Assembly: GCF_900188025.1 (NCBI RefSeq)
Contig: NZ_FZNO01000003.1
Span: 124,001-188,000, forward strand
Direction of reading: 5' to 3'
DNA from: Blastococcus mobilis
GTDB lineage: Bacteria > Actinomycetota > Actinomycetes > Mycobacteriales > Geodermatophilaceae
Length of the DNA stretch: 64,000 nucleotides
A program made the position numbers and the translations under genes. Positions 25,923 through 35,071 of the stretch are shown piece by piece. Within the stretch, counting starts at the first letter, position 1. Each line of letters opens with the position of its first letter. Under the pieces are notes generated by a model that did no database searches, had not been told where the DNA came from, and saw only the letters and a list, made by a program, of their open reading frames with translations.

Positions 25923-26783
25923 CTAGCGGAGGACCACTGCGGCGGGCGTGCTGACGTCGATGGTCCCCGCCGGTTCGAGGCTGCCGTCGGCGATCTGCTC
26001 GAGCAGCCCCACCAGCGCGGCGGCCTTCGCGTCGGATTCCGACGCGTCGCCCCAGCGCACGACGGTCCCGTCGGTCAGCGTCAGCGAGATGTCGTCGGCG
26101 CTGGAGGCGGCGGCACCGGTCACCTGCTTGCGGACATCGGCCGGCAGCGAGCCGACCGCGGCGATGCCGGCCAGGGTGGCGGCATCGTCCGGTCCCGGGG
26201 ACCGGACGTCGAGCGGCACGACACCGTCGGGCGGGGAACCGGTGACCGTGTCGAACAGCACGCCCTCGGCGTCGATGAGGGATCGGCGTCCCGGCTCGCC
26301 CACGACGGCGACCGGCACCCGCTCCACGACGGTGATCACGACGCTGGCCGGCCAGTCGCGGGTCACCTCGACCGACGCGACCTGGGGAAGCCGGGCCACC
26401 CGTGCCTCCGCGGCATCGACGTCGACCCGCAGCAGCGGCGTCCCCCCGCCGATGCCCGCTGCCTCCTGGACCAGATCGGCCGACAGGGTGGCGAGACCGT
26501 CGACCTGCACCGCGCGCACCGTGAGGACCGGACCGGCCAGCAGCAGCCAGGCGAGGAGCGCCACGCCCACGCACGCGGCGACGGCCTGCACCGGTCGGCG
26601 GCGTGCGCCCGCGGGCCGGCCGCTCCGCCGGGCCAGCGGGGTGACCGCCGCGGACGGGTGCCTCGTGCTCCCCCGGCGCTGGTTCCCGTGGCGCTCGGGC
26701 CCCCGGCGGTCGGCACTGCGGCCCCCGGCCCTCCGCTGGGGACCGCCACTGCGGTCCCGCGTGGTCGTGCCGGACCGGCTCAC
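25923..26783 (-). CDS. ftsQ: cell division protein FtsQ/DivIB
   Basis: Single-pass divisome protein linking FtsW/FtsI to the Z ring. 286 residues: an Arg/Gly-rich cytoplasmic tail (about 1-75), a membrane segment AVAACVGVALLAWLLLA, a POTRA domain starting VRAVQVDGLATL, and the FtsQ/DivIB beta domain. The GTG at 26783 overlaps the murC stop as GTGA, which fixes the start against a much longer in-frame reading inside murC. It is followed by the long ftsZ leader. Confidence 0.92.
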   Translation of the reverse strand: MSRSGTTTRDRSGGPQRRAGGRSADRRGPERHGNQRRGSTRHPSAAVTPLARRSGRPAGARRRPVQAVAACVGVALLAWLLLAGPVLTVRAVQVDGLATLSADLVQEAAGIGGGTPLLRVDVDAAEARVARLPQVASVEVTRDWPASVVITVVERVPVAVVGEPGRRSLIDAEGVLFDTVTGSPPDGVVPLDVRSPGPDDAATLAGIAAVGSLPADVRKQVTGAAASSADDISLTLTDGTVVRWGDASESDAKAAALVGLLEQIADGSLEPAGTIDVSTPAAVVLR

Positions 26784-28228
26784 CGGTCCGCGCCCGCCGG
26801 ATCTCCGCCGGTTCCCGCCCGCAGGGCCGCGAGCACCTCCGGACCGACCATGGAGACGTCTCCGGCCCCCATGGTCATCACCAGGTCGCCCGGCCGGGCC
26901 CGCGCGGCCAGAGCGGGGGCGGTCGCCGACCAGGAGGGCTCGAACAGCACGCGGCCGGGCGGCAGCGGGACGGCGTCGGCCACCATCGCACCGGTGACGC
27001 CGGGGACCGGGTCCTCCCGGGCGCCGTACACGTCCATCACCACGACGTCGTCGGCGAGGCCGAGGGCCTGCCCGAAGCCCTCCGCGAACTCCTGGGTCCG
27101 GCTGTAGAGATGGGGCTGGAAGGCGACGACCAGCCGCCCCTCCCCCGCGACGGCACGGGCGGCCTTCAGCTGCGCGGTGACCTCGGTCGGGTGATGGGCG
27201 TAGTCGTCGTACACGCGCACCCCGCCGGCGACGCCCTTCAGCTCGAACCGTCTGTGCACACCGCCGAAGCGGGCCAGGCCCTCGATGAGGTCGGCCGCGG
27301 GCAGCCCCAGCTCGAGACCGGTCAGCAGCGCGGCGGCACTGTTGAGCGCCATGTGCTCCCCCGGCACCTGGATCCGCACCCGCCCCAGCTCGACGCCGTC
27401 GAGGGTCGCCGTGTAGCTGGTCGCGTCCTGGCCCACCTCGAGCCCGGACAGCCGCAGGTCGGCGTCGGCAGCACGGCCGTAGGTGCGCAGGCGAGCCGTG
27501 CAGGACACCGTGCGCAGCCGCGCGGCGCCCGGGTCGTCGGCGCACACCACGACGAACCCGGCCGGGTCGACGGTCTGGAGGAACCGGTCGAACGAGTCCT
27601 CGACGGCCGCCAGGTCGCCGTAGTTGTCGAGGTGATCGGCCTCGACGTTGGTCACGATCGCGCTGAAGGGGGCCAGGAGCAGGAAGGACCGGTCGCTCTC
27701 GTCCGCCTCGGCGACGAAGACGTCGCCCTCCCCCGCGTGCGCATTGCTGCCCGATTCGTTGAGGTCACCGCCGATCGCGAACGACGGGTCGACCCCGCAC
27801 GCCTGGACGGCGACGGTCAGCATCGAGGTGGTCGAGGTCTTCCCGTGCGTACCGGCCACGGCCACGCTGCGCCGGCCCGCCATGACCGCCGCCAGGGCCA
27901 CGGCCCGGGGCAGCACCCGCAGCCCGAGCTGCCGGGCGACCGCCAGCTCGGGATTGTCCGGTCGGATCGCGGTGGAGACGACCACGGTGTCGGCCCCGTC
28001 CAGGTTCGCCGGGTCGTGGCCGACGGCCACCTGCGCGCCGAGCGCCCGCAGCGCAAGCAGGGTCGGCGTGTCGCGTCGATCGCTTCCCGAGACGCGGACA
28101 CCGCGGGCGAGCAGGATCCGCGCGATGCCGCTCATCCCGGCTCCACCGATGCCCACGAAGTGCACCGCACCCAGCTCCTCGAGCGTCGGCACGGGATCGG
28201 TCCAGGCAGCGACGTCGGCCGCGCTCAT
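26780..28228 (-). CDS. murC: UDP-N-acetylmuramate--L-alanine ligase
   Basis: Adds L-Ala to UDP-MurNAc. 482 residues with the N-terminal Rossmann block [14 protein letters not shown] at 23-36, the ATP loop GTHGKTST at 126-133, and the Mur-ligase [10 protein letters not shown] motif. Both ends overlap neighbours by 4 nt (ATGA with murG, GTGA with ftsQ). It is one of three Mur ligases in this cluster; the next enzyme in the pathway, MurD, is not encoded here. Confidence 0.97.
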
Positions 28229-29358
28229 CGCTGCCCCCCGGACTCGGTCCGCGCCTCGGCGGCCGGCGCGCCCACCTCGAGCACGATGTCGGCCAGCCGG
28301 TCGTCGGCGTCGGGCACCCCGGCGGCCGCGGCGTGCCGGGCGTACCCGGACAGCGCCGCGGGGTCGGTCAGCACCGGCACGAGGTGCTCGGTGATCCAGT
28401 CCGCGTCCAGGTCCGCGTCCTCGACGAGCAGTCCGCCGCCGGCCTCGACCACCGGCAGCGCGTTGCGGCGCTGCTCACCGTTGCCGATGGGCAGGGGCAC
28501 GAAGGCCGCGGGCAGTCCGACGGCGGAGAGCTCGGCCACGGTCACCGCGCCGGCCCGGCAGAGGGCGAGATCGGCAGCGGCGTAGGCGAGGTCCATGCGT
28601 TCCAGATAATCGACGACCACGTAGGGGGCACTACCCGGGGGGCGACCGGGGACGGTCACCTCGGTGTTCTTGGGGCCGCGGGCGTGCAACACCTGGATCC
28701 CGGCGGCGGTGAGCGCATCAGCGGCGGCGACCCCGGCCCGGTTCAGCGTCTGGGCGCCCTGCGAGCCGCCGAACACCAGCAGCGTGGGACGGTCGGCGTC
28801 CAGCCCGAACTCGGCCCGGGCCTCGACCCGCCGCGCCGCGCGGTCCAGCGAGCTGATGGCGGTGCGCAGGGGCATCCCCACGTGCTCGCCGCGGTACAGC
28901 GGCGTCCCCGGCGCGGTGACGGCCACCCGGGCGGCCAGCCGGGCACCGACGCGGTTGGCCAGGCCGGGCAGGGCGTTCTGCTCGTGGACGACGATCGGCA
29001 CGCCCGACCTGCGGGCCGCCAGATACGCCGGCAGGGCGACGTATCCGCCGAAGCCGACGACGACGTCGGCGGACACCTCGTCCAGGAGGGCGCGGGTGTC
29101 CGCGACCGCCCGCCGGACCCGGCCGGGGACCCGGAGCAGGTCGACGGTCGGCTTCCGCGGCAGGGGCACCGGCGGGATCAGCCGGAGGTCGTAGCCGCGG
29201 GCCGGAACCAGCCGGGTCTCCATGCCGCGGGCGGTGCCCAGACAGGTGATCCGGAGGTCGCCGTCCCTGCGGCGGAGGGCGTCGGCGAGAGCGAGCATCG
29301 GCTCGATGTGCCCGCCCGTGCCACCGCCGGCCAGGACGACGCTGCGGGTCCGGCTCAT
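28225..29358 (-). CDS. murG: UDP-GlcNAc:lipid I glycosyltransferase
   Basis: Makes lipid II from lipid I at the cytoplasmic membrane face. 377 residues, GT28 family: the N-terminal loop [30 protein letters not shown], and the second-domain [11 protein letters not shown] with the donor-site run [22 protein letters not shown]. The ATG (29358) overlaps the ftsW stop. A longer in-frame reading goes back into ftsW and is not real. Confidence 0.96.
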
Positions 29359-30905
29359 CGGGCACCCCCGGGCCGCCGGGGCGCTCCTGCGGGGGGCTGG
29401 CGACGCCCGCCACCCCGGGCACCGTTCGCGGCGGGGCGGCGGTCCCGAGGCGGCACGACACGCTCGCGGAGCGGCTGGGCCTCGGCAGGTGGAGCCGTCC
29501 GCAGTGCGGCCCCCCGGCGCGCGTCGGGCCGGGACGGCGCGGCCCGGGTGCGGAGCAGGGTCCGGCCACCGCCGCCCGGCGATGGCACCGGAGCGCGGTC
29601 CTCCGGCCGGCGGCGCGGCCGCACCGGGTCGACCGCCGCTGCGGGCACGGGCAGGAGGAGCCGGGCGATCCGGCCGCGGGTCTGGGCGCGCTGCGCCTCG
29701 ATGGCGGCGGGCTCGGACCGGGCGAAGCGGGCCAGCAGGCCGACGATGAAGAGCGTGAGGATGAGGGACGTGCCACCCGCGGAGATCAGCGGCAGCGTCA
29801 CCCCGGTCACCGGCAGCAGCCCGACCACGTAGCCCATGTTCATGGCGGCCTGACCGACCAGCCACACGGTGATGCCGACGCTGGCGAGCTGCACGAACCG
29901 GTCGGCCGAGCGGCGGGCGATGCGGAACCCGGCCCAGGCCAGCACGCCGTAGAGGGCGACCACGACCAGGCAGCCGAGGAAGCCGAGCTCCTCGCCGATG
30001 ATCGCGAAGATGAAGTCGGACTCCGCCTCCGGGAGGAGGTTCCACTTCATGGCGCTGTTGCCCAGCCCCACACCCCAGAAGCCGCCGGTGGCCAGCGCGT
30101 ACATGCCACGGATGGCCTGGAAGCCGCCGTCGGTGGGGTCGGCGAACGGGTCGAGGAACGACGTGATGCGGGACATGCGCTCGGGCGACACCGTCACCAC
30201 GGCGGCGAGCCCTGCAGCGCCACCGGCGATGGCCCAGCCGAACCAGCGCAGCGGCATCCCGCCGGCCCAGAGCAGTCCGACCAGCACCAGCCCGAGGCTC
30301 ACGACGCCGCCGAAGTCCGGTTCCGCGATGATCAGCAGCGACAGGATCCCGAAGACCGGCACCACCGGGACGAGCAGCGACGACGTGGTCAGGTAGCGCT
30401 CGCGCAGGGCGAGGACGTGCGCGCCCCAGAGCGCGAACACGAGCTTGGCGATCTCCGAGGGCTGCAGCAGGGCGAAGCCCAGGTCGAACCACTGCCGTGC
30501 CCCGTTGAGCTTCACACCGATACCGGGCACCAGGACCAGGAGCAGCATCGCTGCGACCACGATCAGCGCGACCGGCGACCACCGCCGGATCAGCCCGGTC
30601 GGCAGTCGCAGGGCCACCAGCATCGCGACGACGCCCAGCCCTGCCCAGATCAGCTGCTGCACACCTGGGGCCCACGCGGGCTGGTCCTCCAGCGCAGCCT
30701 CGATCGAGGAGGCGGAGAAGACCATGACCAGACCGATGGCCAGGAGCAGCCCGGCCGAGCCGAGGACGAGGTGGCTGCTGGTCATCGGGCCGTCCAGCCA
30801 GGCAGGCCCCTGGAAGCGCGAGGGGCGCTCGTGGCGGGTCGGCGTGGCGCGCTCGCGGGCGGAGCGCTCAGCGCCCGACGTCCGCGGCCGGGTGCTGGCG
30901 GTCAT
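29355..30905 (-). CDS. ftsW: peptidoglycan glycosyltransferase FtsW (SEDS)
   Basis: Septal SEDS polymerase working with the PBP encoded 4.5 kb upstream. 516 residues with about ten membrane segments, the [12 protein letters not shown] loop, AEPDFGG, and the SEDS signature [16 protein letters not shown]. The last 120 residues (after [12 protein letters not shown]) are a long Arg/Pro/Ala-rich cytoplasmic tail, longer than in E. coli. The ATG at 30905 overlaps the stop of the preceding 43-codon ORF as ATGA. Confidence 0.95.
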
Positions 30906-31033
30906 CGGAGGCCGCCCCGCTCGTCCGCGCTCATGACCCCATCGTCGCTGCTGGGCCGCCCCGCCAGGCCGATCCCCGGTGCGTGTCGCGCGAGGAGGAC
31001 CGACGGCCTGCCGGTGGGTGACGCGTCGCTCAC
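30902..31033 (-). CDS. 43-codon bridging ORF in the murD position
   Basis: A GTG-started ORF of 43 codons that overlaps the mraY stop (GTGA, 31033-31030) and the ftsW start (ATGA, 30905-30902), so it fills the gap exactly as a full gene would. The translation starts MSDASPTGRPSVLLARHAPG and ends [12 protein letters not shown]. In most actinobacteria this slot holds murD (about 450-500 codons). The first 15 residues could pass as a MurD N-terminus (a GRPSVLL strand), but no ATP loop or ligase motif exists. I read it as either an in-frame deletion scar of murD kept for translational coupling or a leader peptide. Whether it is translated is unknown. Confidence 0.5.
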   Translation of the reverse strand: MSDASPTGRPSVLLARHAPGIGLAGRPSSDDGVMSADERGGLR

Positions 31034-32109
31034 AGCCCGACGATGTTCAGCCAGTCGGCGTAGAACAGCCCGATGCCGAAAGCGACGGCCATCGCCGTCA
31101 CCAGCCAGAACCGCACGATGACGGTGTTCTCCGTCCAGCCCGCGAGCTCGAAGTGGTGATGCAGCGGCGCCATCCGGAAGACCCGCCTGCGGGTCGCCCG
31201 GAAGAAGGCGACCTGGATGACCACCGACAGCGTGACCGCGACGAACAGCCCACCCAGCACGATCAGCAGCAGCTCGGTACGCGTCACGATGGCCAGGCCC
31301 GACAGCAGGCCACCCAGGGCCAGGGAGCCGGTGTCACCCATGAAGATCCGGGCCGGACTGGTGTTCCACCACAGGAAGCCGAGGCAGGCGCCCAGGCCGG
31401 CGGCCGCGACGAGGGTGACGTCCAGCGGGTCGCGGACGGTGTAGCAGCCGTCGATGAGCTCGTTGGCGCAGTCGTGGGTGAACTGCCAGAAGGAGATGAA
31501 GACGTAGGAGGCGAACACCATGGCCGAGGAGCCCGCCGCCAGGCCGTCCAGACCGTCGGTGAGGTTCACCGCGTTGGAGAAGCCGGCGATGAACAGGTAG
31601 GCCAGGATCACGAAGGCGATCGAGCCCAGCGCGAACGGGGCGATGTCCCGGACATAGGAGACGACGGTGGACGCCGGCGTCACGCCGTCGCTGTTGGGGA
31701 AGTTGATGGCGAGCACCGCGAAGGAGACGCCCACCAGCAGCTGGCCGACGAGCTTGGCGGTCTTGTTGAGCCCGAGGCTGCGACGGTGACGGATCTTGAG
31801 GTAGTCGTCCAGGAAGCCGACGGTGCCCATGCCCACCATGAGGAAGATCAGCATCAGCCCGCTGGCGGTGAACCCCCAGTTGTCCCGACCGCCCAGGAAC
31901 AGGTGCGCGGCCACGTAGCCACCGACGGTCGCACCGACGATCACCGTGCCGCCCATGGTGGGCGTGCCCTTCTTCGACAGGTGGCTCTCCGGCCCGTCGT
32001 CCCGGATCTCCTGCCCCAGCCCCTGCCGGCGGAAGGCACGGATGGCCAGCGGGGTGAGCAGGATGGAGATGATCAGGCTGAACCCGGACGCGATCAGGAC
32101 CGACCTCAT
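31030..32109 (-). CDS. mraY: phospho-MurNAc-pentapeptide translocase
   Basis: Makes lipid I on undecaprenyl phosphate. 359 residues, ten membrane segments. Catalytic Asp pair DD at 101-102 (GFLDDYLK), NLTDGLDG at 182-189, and the HHH motif at 317-319 in MAPLHHHFEL. The ATG at 32109 overlaps the murF stop. Its own stop overlaps the small bridging ORF. Confidence 0.97.
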   Translation of the reverse strand: MRSVLIASGFSLIISILLTPLAIRAFRRQGLGQEIRDDGPESHLSKKGTPTMGGTVIVGATVGGYVAAHLFLGGRDNWGFTASGLMLIFLMVGMGTVGFLDDYLKIRHRRSLGLNKTAKLVGQLLVGVSFAVLAINFPNSDGVTPASTVVSYVRDIAPFALGSIAFVILAYLFIAGFSNAVNLTDGLDGLAAGSSAMVFASYVFISFWQFTHDCANELIDGCYTVRDPLDVTLVAAAGLGACLGFLWWNTSPARIFMGDTGSLALGGLLSGLAIVTRTELLLIVLGGLFVAVTLSVVIQVAFFRATRRRVFRMAPLHHHFELAGWTENTVIVRFWLVTAMAVAFGIGLFYADWLNIVGL

Positions 32110-33500
32110 GCGCCGGCCCCCGTGGTCAGGAGGTCGGCGGCGAGCAGTTCCAGCCCATAGGAGCGGCTGGCCTTGACCAGGACGACGTCCCCGGGACGGA
32201 GCACCTCCGACAGCAGCTCGCGGGCAGCGGCCCGGTCCGGCACGTGCACCGACTCCTCTCCTGCGCGACGCCCTGCGGCGGCGGCGCCCTCGGCTATGCC
32301 TACCGCATCGGCTCCCACGGCCACGATCAGGTCCACGCCCGCGGCGACCGCGTCGCGGCCCAGCCGCTCGTGCTCGGCCGGCGCGTCCGCACCCAGCTCA
32401 CCCATCCCACCGAGGACGGCGATCCGGCGCTCGCCGGGCAGCCCGGCGAGCGCGGCGAGCGCCGCCCGCATCGACTCCGGGTTGGCGTTGTAGGCGTCGT
32501 TGACGACGGTCACCCCGTCGGCGCGGCGGTCGACCTCCATCCGCCAGCGGCTGCGCGGAGCGGCCGCGGAGAGAGCCGCCGCGATCTCCGCGGGCGGCAT
32601 GCCCACCGCGAGCGCGGCCCCGGCGGCCGACAGCGCGTTGGCGACCTGGTGCTCGCCGACCACCTGCAGTGCCACCGGGTGCTCCTCGCCCGCCACGACC
32701 AGCGTGAAGCGGGGGCGGGCCGAGTCGTCGAGCGTGACGGCGGTGGCCCGGACGTCGGCGTCCGTCCCCCGGCCGGTGGTCAGGACGGCCGCGTCCGTGC
32801 GGGGTGCCATCCCGAGGACCCGGGGGTCGTCGGCGTTGAGGACGGCGGTCCCGTCCTCGGGCAGCGCCTCGACGAGTTCTCCCTTGGCCGTCGCGATGCC
32901 CTCGGGGCTGCCGAACTCGCCCAGGTGTGCCGAGCCGACGTTGAGCACCACCCCGACCTGCGGGCGGGCGATGCGGCACAGGCGGGCGATGTGCCCCGGG
33001 CCGCGGGACCCCATCTCCAGCACCAGGAAGCGGGTGTCCTCGTCGGCGTCGAGGACGGTGAGCGGCAGACCGATGTCGTTGTTGTACGAGCCCGGCGGGC
33101 TGACGGTGGGCCCGGCGGCGGCGAGCACCTGGCCCAGCAGGTCCTTGGTGGAAGTCTTGCCGGACGAGCCGGTGATCCCCAGCGTCCGCAGTCCCCCGGC
33201 GGCCAGCCGGGCGTGCACCCCGGCGGCCAGCCGACCCAGTGCGGCGACCGGGTCCTCGACGACGACCGTCGGCAGCGCGTCGTCGGGGCGGGTGCTCAGC
33301 GCGGCCACGGCACCGGCGGCCGCGGCCGCGGCCAGGAAGTCGTGGCCGTCGACCCGCTCCCCCGCGACCGCGACGAACAGGTCGCCGGGCGCCACCGTGC
33401 GGGAGTCGAGCGTGACCTTCCCGGTGACGCGGGCACCGTCGGGTCGGGTCAGCACGCCACCGGACAGCTCGGCCACCTCGGCCAGCGACAGCGGGATCAT
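32106..33500 (-). CDS. murF: UDP-MurNAc-tripeptide--D-Ala-D-Ala ligase
   Basis: Adds D-Ala-D-Ala to complete the pentapeptide. 464 residues: a substrate domain, the ATP loop GSSGKTST at 111-118, the central VLEMGSRGPGHI motif, and the NDAYNANPESM block. The ATG at 33500 overlaps the murE stop by 4 nt; its stop overlaps mraY. Confidence 0.97.
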   Translation of the reverse strand: MIPLSLAEVAELSGGVLTRPDGARVTGKVTLDSRTVAPGDLFVAVAGERVDGHDFLAAAAAAGAVAALSTRPDDALPTVVVEDPVAALGRLAAGVHARLAAGGLRTLGITGSSGKTSTKDLLGQVLAAAGPTVSPPGSYNNDIGLPLTVLDADEDTRFLVLEMGSRGPGHIARLCRIARPQVGVVLNVGSAHLGEFGSPEGIATAKGELVEALPEDGTAVLNADDPRVLGMAPRTDAAVLTTGRGTDADVRATAVTLDDSARPRFTLVVAGEEHPVALQVVGEHQVANALSAAGAALAVGMPPAEIAAALSAAAPRSRWRMEVDRRADGVTVVNDAYNANPESMRAALAALAGLPGERRIAVLGGMGELGADAPAEHERLGRDAVAAGVDLIVAVGADAVGIAEGAAAAGRRAGEESVHVPDRAAARELLSEVLRPGDVVLVKASRSYGLELLAADLLTTGAGA

Positions 33501-35071
33501 GCGGTCCCCAGCGCCGCGAGCACCTCGCGCAGGACGTCCCGGTCGTCGAAGGGATGCACGATGCCGGCGACCTCCTGGCCCGTCTCGTGCCCCTTCCCGG
33601 CGACGAGCAGCGTGTCCCCGGGGCCGGCCAGGGCGACGGCGGCGGCGAGCGCGTCGCGACGGCCGGCGACCTCGTGCACCTCGGCGCGGCGTTCCGCGGG
33701 GACGTCCCGGGCCCCGGCGAGCATCGCGGCGCGGATGACCGCCGGGTCCTCCGAGCGTGGGTTGTCGTCGGTCACCACGAGGATGTCGCTGGCCTCGGCG
33801 GCGGCGGCACCCATCGCGGGCCGCTTGCCCGGGTCACGCTCGCCCCCGCAGCCCAGGACGGTGATCAGCCGGCCCTCCGTCGCCCCGCGCAGGGCGGTGA
33901 GGGCCGTGGTGACGGCATCGGGCGTGTGGGCGTAGTCGACGACGGCGACGAACGGCTGGCCGGCCTCGACGGGCTCCATGCGGCCGGGGACGACGGTCGC
34001 GGCGATGCCGGCCAGCGCCGTCTCCACGGGCACGCCGACGGCGTCGAGGAGGGCGACGGCCAGAACGGCGTTGGCCACGTTGAAGCGCCCGGGCAGCCGT
34101 AGCCGCCCCGGCCAGGTACGCCCGCCGGGGCCGGAGAGCGTGAAGGTCGAGCCACCGTCGGGCGCGGTCGCCACGTCGGTCGCGCTCCAGTCGGCCGGGC
34201 CGGTGATCGACACGGTCCCGGCATCCGGCCGCAGTCCGGCCAGCCGGCGACCGGCCTCGTCGTCGACGTCGACGACCTCCGCCGCGGCCCGGCCGTCGAA
34301 GAGCATCGCCTTGGCCCGGAAGTACTCCTCGAGGTCGCCGTGGAAGTCCAGGTGGTCCCGGCCGAGGTTGGTGAACCCGGCGGCGGCGAACCGCACGCCG
34401 CCGACCCGGCCCAGCACCAGCGCGTGGCTGGACACCTCCATGACGACGGCGGAGACCCCCGACCCGGCCATGGTCGCCAGGAGCGCGTGCAGGGCGGGCG
34501 CCTCGGGGGTGGTCCGGACGCTGGGGAAGGCGGTCTCGGTGGGTGCGCCGTCGGCGGCCCGGCCACGTGTCCGGGTCTGCACGGTGCCGATGAGCCCGGT
34601 CCCCAGGCCCGCGGCGGCGAGGCCGGCCTCGACGAGGTAGGCCGTCGTCGTCTTGCCGTTCGTGCCGGTGATGCCGATGACGCGGAGCGCGCGGCTGGGC
34701 TCGCCGTAGACGCGGTCGGCGACGAGGCCGAGCACCGCTCGGGGGTCGTCCACGACGCACACCGGCAGGCCGGCGGTCGCAGCCGTCTCCCGGCCCGTCG
34801 GGTCGGTGAGAACGGCCACCGCGCCGCGACGAGCCGCGTCGGCGGCGAATCGGGCGCCGTGGGTCCTGGCGCCCGGCAGGGCGGCGTAGAGGTCACCGGA
34901 CCGCACCTCGCCCGACGCGAGCGTCACGCCGGAGATCACCGGGTCGCCGGCTTCGCAGCCGGAGACGGGAGCGCCGACGAGATCGGTGAGGTCGGCCAGC
35001 GTCAGGGGACCGGTCAGCGGCCGGTCCCCCACGGGCCGGGGCACAGACCCGGCATCGGTCGTCGGGGTCAC
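33497..35071 (-). CDS. murE: UDP-MurNAc-L-Ala-D-Glu--meso-DAP ligase
   Basis: Adds the third stem residue. 524 residues, ATP loop GTNGKTTT at 136-143. The DNPR motif at 436-439 is the signature of meso-diaminopimelate specificity, so the wall should be mDAP-type (A1gamma). The start is GTG at 35071 after GGAG; about 20 extra N-terminal residues precede the first beta strand. Its substrate, the D-Glu dipeptide, requires a MurD activity that is not encoded in this cluster. Confidence 0.96.
   Translation of the reverse strand: MTPTTDAGSVPRPVGDRPLTGPLTLADLTDLVGAPVSGCEAGDPVISGVTLASGEVRSGDLYAALPGARTHGARFAADAARRGAVAVLTDPTGRETAATAGLPVCVVDDPRAVLGLVADRVYGEPSRALRVIGITGTNGKTTTAYLVEAGLAAAGLGTGLIGTVQTRTRGRAADGAPTETAFPSVRTTPEAPALHALLATMAGSGVSAVVMEVSSHALVLGRVGGVRFAAAGFTNLGRDHLDFHGDLEEYFRAKAMLFDGRAAAEVVDVDDEAGRRLAGLRPDAGTVSITGPADWSATDVATAPDGGSTFTLSGPGGRTWPGRLRLPGRFNVANAVLAVALLDAVGVPVETALAGIAATVVPGRMEPVEAGQPFVAVVDYAHTPDAVTTALTALRGATEGRLITVLGCGGERDPGKRPAMGAAAAEASDILVVTDDNPRSEDPAVIRAAMLAGARDVPAERRAEVHEVAGRRDALAAAVALAGPGDTLLVAGKGHETGQEVAGIVHPFDDRDVLREVLAALGTA

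Follow-up and report, generated by a model that had tools for sequence, protein, structure and literature searches.

Two described systems stand closest to this locus. The first is the cell-wall pathway of Xanthomonas oryzae, Micromonospora and Salinispora, in which MurD2 ligates L-Glu and MurL then carries out the epimerisation with ATP; the actinobacterial carriers listed are Micromonospora, Actinoplanes, Verrucosispora and Salinispora (PMC8788868). Residues E197 and R358 are reported to set the L-Glu use of X. oryzae MurD2, and E. coli MurD with the substitution K319T accepts L-Glu (PMC8788868). The second is the ftsW promoter of Streptomyces venezuelae. There, ftsW is a direct target of activation by WhiA, which binds GACAC and gives a footprint on this promoter; a WhiA ChIP peak is placed at 269 bp from the start codon of ftsW, and an 'ftsW-specific promoter' within the cluster was inferred by the authors (PMC3781837). 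GACAC is a frequent word, with 15,116 occurrences in S. venezuelae (PMC3781837). WhiB is a co-activator of ftsW (PMC4850268).

The window, that is, the whole stretch of DNA analysed, comprises 64 kb of the soil actinobacterium Blastococcus mobilis (genome G000; 5.09 Mb, 99.99% complete). The division cluster (dcw) lies on the minus strand and reads murE, murF, mraY, ORF43, ftsW and, further on, murC, which is the usual order minus murD. The gap between mraY and ftsW is 124 bp (31029-30906) and holds no Mur ligase. ORF43 starts with GTG inside the stop of mraY (GTGA) and ends inside the start of ftsW (ATGA); it has no match in NCBIfam or Pfam at E 0.001. Loss of murD from the cluster, a GTG-started ORF of 43 codons coupled at both ends, and intact murC, murE and murF had all been put forward in a sequence-only reading of this DNA, and all are confirmed. 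Features of the cluster, all on the minus strand, are as follows.

26780..28228, minus strand: murC, intact (TIGR01082, 471 bits, above cut-off).
29355..30905, minus strand: ftsW, 516 aa (TIGR02614, 377 bits, above cut-off); the gene proposed to be served by the element described below.
30902..30934, minus strand: 10-codon mini-ORF, beginning 6 nt after the hexamer, its stop overlapping the ftsW ATG; predicted start of a leaderless mRNA.
30902..31033, minus strand: ORF43, 43 codons, GTG start; read as an in-frame murD relic between mraY and ftsW.
30932..30994, minus strand: segment homologous to intact MurD, LARHAPGIGLAGRPSSDDGVM against LARHAPMVPVVSVASGDDDGM of the murD-bearing relative G030; same frame, gapless, near codon 400.
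30941..30946, minus strand: GACGAT, putative -10-like hexamer, separated from GACAC by exactly 36 nt; TANNNT-like except for its first base.
30983..30987, minus strand: GACAC upstream of ftsW, a WhiA-type motif (GTGTC on the plus strand).
31030..32109, minus strand: mraY, 359 aa (TIGR00445, 307 bits, above cut-off); its TGA overlaps the GTG of ORF43.
32106..33500, minus strand: murF, intact (TIGR01143, 414 bits, above cut-off).
33497..35071, minus strand: murE, intact (NF001124, 570 bits, above cut-off).

The D-Glu-adding step had been expected to come from elsewhere in the genome, possibly by a MurD2/MurL-type pathway, and the genome search agrees with this. A single MurD-like gene above the cut-off is present, on contig C54, and a MurL-like gene lies beside it.

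C54:133516-134835, minus strand: murL, 439 aa (NF041275, 322 bits, E 3.6e-96).
C54:132243-133541, minus strand: murD2 (TIGR01087, 257 bits, passing the murD cut-off).

Gene murL is directly upstream of murD2 and overlaps it by 26 nt. MurL is the only NCBIfam match of the 439-aa protein, and most of NF041275 is covered. The score of 322 bits lies below the cut-off of 700 set for the model, a value reached by none of the 112 family and none of the 118 class genomes; this cut-off may therefore be specific to Xanthomonadales. MurL is 90-91% identical in four Blastococcus records. Glutamate racemase MurI (TIGR00067) has no match in the genome. D-amino-acid aminotransferase Dat (TIGR01121) reaches only 30 bits, with the cut-off at 277. 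The missing D-Glu-adding step is very probably supplied by MurD2/MurL, whose enzyme activities are predicted.

Likeness to the pathway described in PMC8788868 lies in the MurD-like gene adjoining a MurL-like gene, in MurI and Dat being without matches above cut-off, and in Arg at the K348 position of the MurD2-like protein. Differences from it, as far as its published list of genera and its described features extend, are that the host family is not among the actinobacterial genera listed there, that one family holds two distinct types of the pair, and that loss of murD leaves a conserved relic. MurD2/MurL is thus extended beyond those genera. Among the papers listed in a literature search, none names either protein for the genera concerned, which does not imply absence from print.

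Compared with the PDB by sequence, MurL matches nothing at E 0.01. It is predicted to have a QueC/QatC-like fold (model of L126:3001-4317, from a relative 91% identical). QueC and QatC, both PP-loop enzymes, are fold relatives with a sequence identity of 12-13%, and a common fold does not show the reaction. The predicted fold fits adenylation, of which it is no proof, and agrees with the adenylation mechanism proposed in PMC8788868.

MurL is present in 38 of 112 genomes of the family and MurI above cut-off in 69; both together occur in none. Within the genus of the window, MurL is carried by seven genomes (G000, G024, G025, G026, G029, G037, G038) and MurI by eight (G027, G028, G030, G031, G032, G034, G035, G036). 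One genus thus holds both cell-wall pathways, and close species can be compared directly for the swap of an essential step. Neither gene passes the cut-off in five genomes, namely G033, G069, G094 and G096, which are incomplete, and G017. The MurI match of G017 is split in two pieces (C1:939554-940289), a possible frameshift.

Junctions were read in 72 mraY regions and the window, comprising 37 MurL genomes and 36 others; G097 has MurL but no whole mraY and stands outside the 37. In all 37 readable MurL genomes, seven of them of the same genus, murD is missing at the junction and the mraY-ftsW gap is short. In murD-bearing relatives the gap is about 1.3-1.55 kb (33 of 36, sizes extrapolated from protein alignments; no gap was measured for G033, G035 and G086). 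An assembly artefact or chance is unlikely as the cause of the short gap. An assembly deletion, against which the sequence-only reading had wanted relatives compared, is rejected, all 37 readable junctions being in agreement.

In a tree of MraY, FtsW and MurF (69 genomes, without G033, G035, G060 and G086; some deep nodes weak, down to 0.26), MurL genomes form three clades: g1 (support 0.982), the g9 genomes G095 and G104 (0.997), and g3 with g11 (0.996). G060, which belongs to g3 and has both murD and MurI, is placed next to the g3 and g11 group in an FtsW tree. Two types of MurL are distinguished, and they separate in the MurL tree, which was built without the class loci L272-L278. Type A occurs in g1 and g9 genomes (named records Blastococcus and Modestobacter), with murL preceding murD2. 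Type B occurs in g3 and g11, with murD2 preceding murL, and is 32-38% identical to MurL of the window genome. From the three clades and the two types we infer at least two acquisitions of MurL and, on the MraY, FtsW and MurF tree, three losses of murD.

A simpler source of the missing step would be an ordinary MurD, relocated beside MurL and using D-Glu from some other source. In its favour, the gene on C54 passes the murD cut-off, and its product carries Asp at the position of E. coli residue 182. This reading is nevertheless held to be very unlikely: an overlapping MurL-like gene adjoins it, MurI has no match and Dat none above cut-off, and Leu and Arg replace the K319 and K348 seen in 15 of 16 canonical rows. 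Positions D182, K319 and K348 of E. coli are D, K and K in 15 of the 16 canonical MurD rows of the family; in the sixteenth, G111, the wrong frame was picked. The MurD-like proteins beside MurL have D, L and R in type A and E, L and R in type B. Among 80 loci of a named collection, 77 of which have a MurD-like gene in the flank and three none, the K319 position, covered in 75, always has L, I or F instead, and the K348 position, covered in 73, has R in 72. As the main reading, a relocated canonical MurD was rejected because the only other MurD-like gene above cut-off adjoins the MurL-like gene and lacks K319 and K348.

The specificity residues of the MurD2-like proteins differ by type. Glu occupies the E197 position in seven aligned type B members, whereas aligned type A members, including that of the window genome, have Asp in place of Glu197 of X. 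oryzae MurD2; E197 (E. coli D182) is a reported determinant of that one enzyme and is not reported as a rule for the family. Arg at the position of X. oryzae R358 (E. coli K348) is present in the window genome. L-Glu is the predicted substrate of the type A MurD2-like enzyme, the exact specificity of which may differ since type A lacks this Glu.

The remains of murD at the junction carry a conserved DNA element. GACAC-N36-NANNNT-N6-start codon is found in 36 of 37 junctions of MurL genomes. The exception, G058, has no match to the element; its interval, counted by eye, is 48. The stricter form CGACACG-N35-NANNAT-N6-RTG matches 36 of 37 junctions and 0 of 1850 dinucleotide shuffles, a comparison that ignores relatedness. 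CGACAC-N36-GANNNT-N6-RTG matches once in the 64 kb window, both strands considered, and the match is the element at ORF43. The first base of the hexamer is T in no tabulated junction or murD gene. Columns were compared without G058 in the murD-less set and without G035, G060 and G033 in the murD-bearing set. The distance from mraY to GACAC is 12-198 nt across junctions; since it varies, the fixed spacing is not common to the flank.

In 35 of 36 murD-bearing relatives the same element lies inside intact murD and in its frame, with a 36-nt spacing that in these genomes follows in part from protein conservation; in G035 the gene is cut by the contig end before the element. In the intact genes the block is translated as SLARHAP...SGDD..(M/V) or a close variant. 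It sits at around codon 400 of the open frame, with 68-85 codons left before the murD stop (one gene being cut by a contig end). ORF43 reads LARHAP...SSDDGVM in the same frame. Judged from this in-frame match, the LARHAP part of ORF43 is a murD relic, the rest of the gene having been deleted on both sides. Homology of codons 1-13 of ORF43 to the N-terminal part of murD was also considered; the by-eye comparison was not convincing.

The element is also present in frame in murD at 42 of 50 loci of the class, the sample comprising, out of 118 genomes searched, the 30 ftsW loci with the best scores and 20 more chosen from different families. The element as defined is missing at eight. Of these, L265 is murD-less, L268 has no match for murD or ftsW, and L257, L259, L260 and L262 retain the CGA codon without the full pattern. 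The Arg codon of the block, located by protein alignment alone and without use of any DNA motif (G035, L265 and L268 unaligned), reads CGA without exception: in 35 of 35 murD genes of the family and 46 of 46 class genes that have Arg, together 81 of 81. Two further class genes have Glu or Thr at this position. Among other Arg codons the share of CGA is 5.4% in family genes and 8.4% in class genes. Conservation of the protein accounts for the Arg, not for the choice of the codon.

It might be supposed that the relic is a neutral leftover, persisting since the deletions are recent or stopped at random. One inherited deletion per clade is possible, in which case the counts are not independent events. 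However, 36 of 37 junctions keep the 36-nt interval while the distance from mraY to GACAC ranges over 12-198 nt, and the block is common to three clades. A neutral leftover is highly improbable. What is conserved in the relic is its DNA and not the peptide, and this DNA would most likely be an ftsW promoter embedded in murD.

The reading frame is kept as well. In 33 of 37 junctions an open frame runs from the overlapping GTG of mraY into the relic, and it is preserved by 20 of the 23 distinct lengths (binomial 1.6e-7 if lengths are independent, which those of related genomes are not). Nearly all g3 junctions retain the frame. On this conservation a translational relay from mraY to ftsW is probably real too. 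The proposal of the sequence-only reading, an in-frame deletion of murD kept for coupling, stands as to the in-frame relic and the open frame. Coupling as the reason is supported in part; the strongest conserved feature, the DNA element, was missed in that reading and points to an embedded ftsW promoter.

Some g3 junctions (L066-L091) contain a GC-rich, repeat-like insertion of varying length between mraY and GACAC, of the GGACCACCCT...GGCGGCCGTTCCAGCACCTCACC type.

Were the relay the sole function, the relic being kept only for the passage of ribosomes and the GACAC block having no role in transcription, the 33 open frames and the 20 in-frame lengths would be explained. The same DNA block with its 36-nt spacing in three clades would not, nor would the fact that all 81 intact murD genes with Arg encode it by CGA; moreover, the frame is broken yet the block kept in G038, G039, G095 and G104. 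A function in the relay alone is unlikely.

Conservation of the small ORF itself is not borne out by codon-position data, in which the 43-codon peptide does not look conserved. A functional small protein would fit the GTG start, the overlaps resembling those of neighbouring genes, and the identical length of ORF43 in four of seven MurL genomes of the genus. In those four equal-length g1 ORFs, differences per site at positions 1/2/3 are 0.28/0.42/0.39, 0.14/0.21/0.31 and 0.23/0.20/0.20 for three parts of ORF43; in contrast, mraY of the same four genus members shows 0.02/0.005/0.26. Substitutions thus fall on all codon positions, unlike in mraY, and the frame continues into ftsW with no stop in g3 and g11. 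The peptide is probably not functional, and a dedicated small protein as the reason for ORF43 is extremely improbable.

Our preferred reading of ORF43 is a murD relic that has been retained for a predicted ftsW promoter within it and for an open frame from mraY to ftsW. A WhiA gene is present in the genome (TIGR00647, 341 bits, C51:48522-49424). In a cryo-EM study, WhiA reportedly sits on GACAC upstream of the -35 region and WhiB on sigma region 4. In the murD-bearing G030 and G022, GACAC lies about 230 bp upstream of ftsW (extrapolated). The WhiA/WhiB ftsW promoter of S. venezuelae is alike in having GACAC upstream of ftsW inside the dcw cluster, and its listed peak at 269 bp is similar to the distance in these two relatives (PMC3781837). 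It is unlike the present locus, where murD around the site is deleted and the site is about 80 bp upstream of ftsW. Two features are proposals of this analysis and not of the S. venezuelae papers: a -10-like hexamer at a spacing of 36 nt, and the leaderless start. In a literature search, no report was found of an ftsW promoter inside murD, with WhiA or with a leaderless start.

The following course of events is proposed. With a MurL-like/MurD2-like pair in place, canonical murI and murD would have become dispensable. The division cluster would then have lost murD, apart from about 21 codons of the 3' part, kept because those bases carry the ftsW promoter. The putative promoter consists of GACAC, 36 nt, a -10-like hexamer, 6 nt and the start codon, and would depend on WhiA, or WhiA and WhiB. 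A leaderless mRNA is predicted to start at the A of ATG, 30934; its 10-codon mini-ORF would hand ribosomes to ftsW through the ATGA overlap, and operon transcripts from mraY would use the GTG of ORF43 for the same hand-over. In six of seven murD-less g1 genomes, and likewise in G038, the start of the mini-ORF opens a short same-frame stretch ending in the ftsW start; the g3 and g11 genomes have this start in frame with ftsW. This account as a whole, replacement of murI/murD by MurD2/MurL and deletion of murD apart from the part with the ftsW promoter, is considered likely.

Among the genomes of the class, MurL occurs in 9 of 118. In one of them, G220, from another family of the order, mraY and ftsW are adjacent without murD; GACAC is kept, followed by a 42-nt interval, the hexamer GATGAT and GTG. 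Thirteen mraY loci of MurL genomes from outside the family (L207-L219) were compared, of which L209 and L218 could not be judged. Some of their murD matches overlap mraY, the query having extra upstream codons, and loci were judged by the mraY-ftsW distance. At 8 of 13, the distance from mraY to the ftsW match is about 120-260 nt, which leaves no room for murD, and the element as defined is missing; these murD-less loci argue against a universal rule. At 3 of 13, two of Kineosporia and one of a Frankiaceae MAG, a murD ORF with the element is present.

The two Kineosporia species have MurL and MurD2-like genes elsewhere and no MurI above cut-off. A murD-length ORF lies downstream of mraY in both (L213 and L217, of the genomes of L141 and L139). 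Its product has TGTRGKATT for TGTNGKTTT, DDSAATD for DDSKATN, and GGHGPAP or GGYGDVP for GGLLKG; the DHxDWH segment and the residues after it are missing. The block is retained with its 36-nt spacing. By its motifs, this cluster MurD looks like a dead enzyme kept for the embedded element, though it may have another role.

A broader generalisation is put forward as rather more probable than not, and with less assurance than the account for the family: across Actinomycetes the ftsW promoter would lie inside murD; once MurD2/MurL had made murD redundant, at least three lineages of one family, and G220 of another, would have deleted the gene around it, and Kineosporia would keep a broken murD that carries it. 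In that case, what can go when an essential gene is replaced would be decided by a regulatory element lying within it. Such a promoter of a division gene, located inside the gene of a neighbouring enzyme, would constrain a highly conserved bacterial gene cluster in a way that can be tested.

The Frankiaceae MAG (G118, the genome of L146) has MurL, a canonical cluster MurD and full MurI together; it may represent a transition or a mixed bin. MurL-like genes are also found in MAGs of Saccharibacteria, Sericytochromatia, Bacteroidales and Oscillospiraceae (L177, L178, L179, L180, L205 and others), mostly with an adjoining MurD-like gene, none being found for L205. These carriers lie beyond the taxa listed in PMC8788868.
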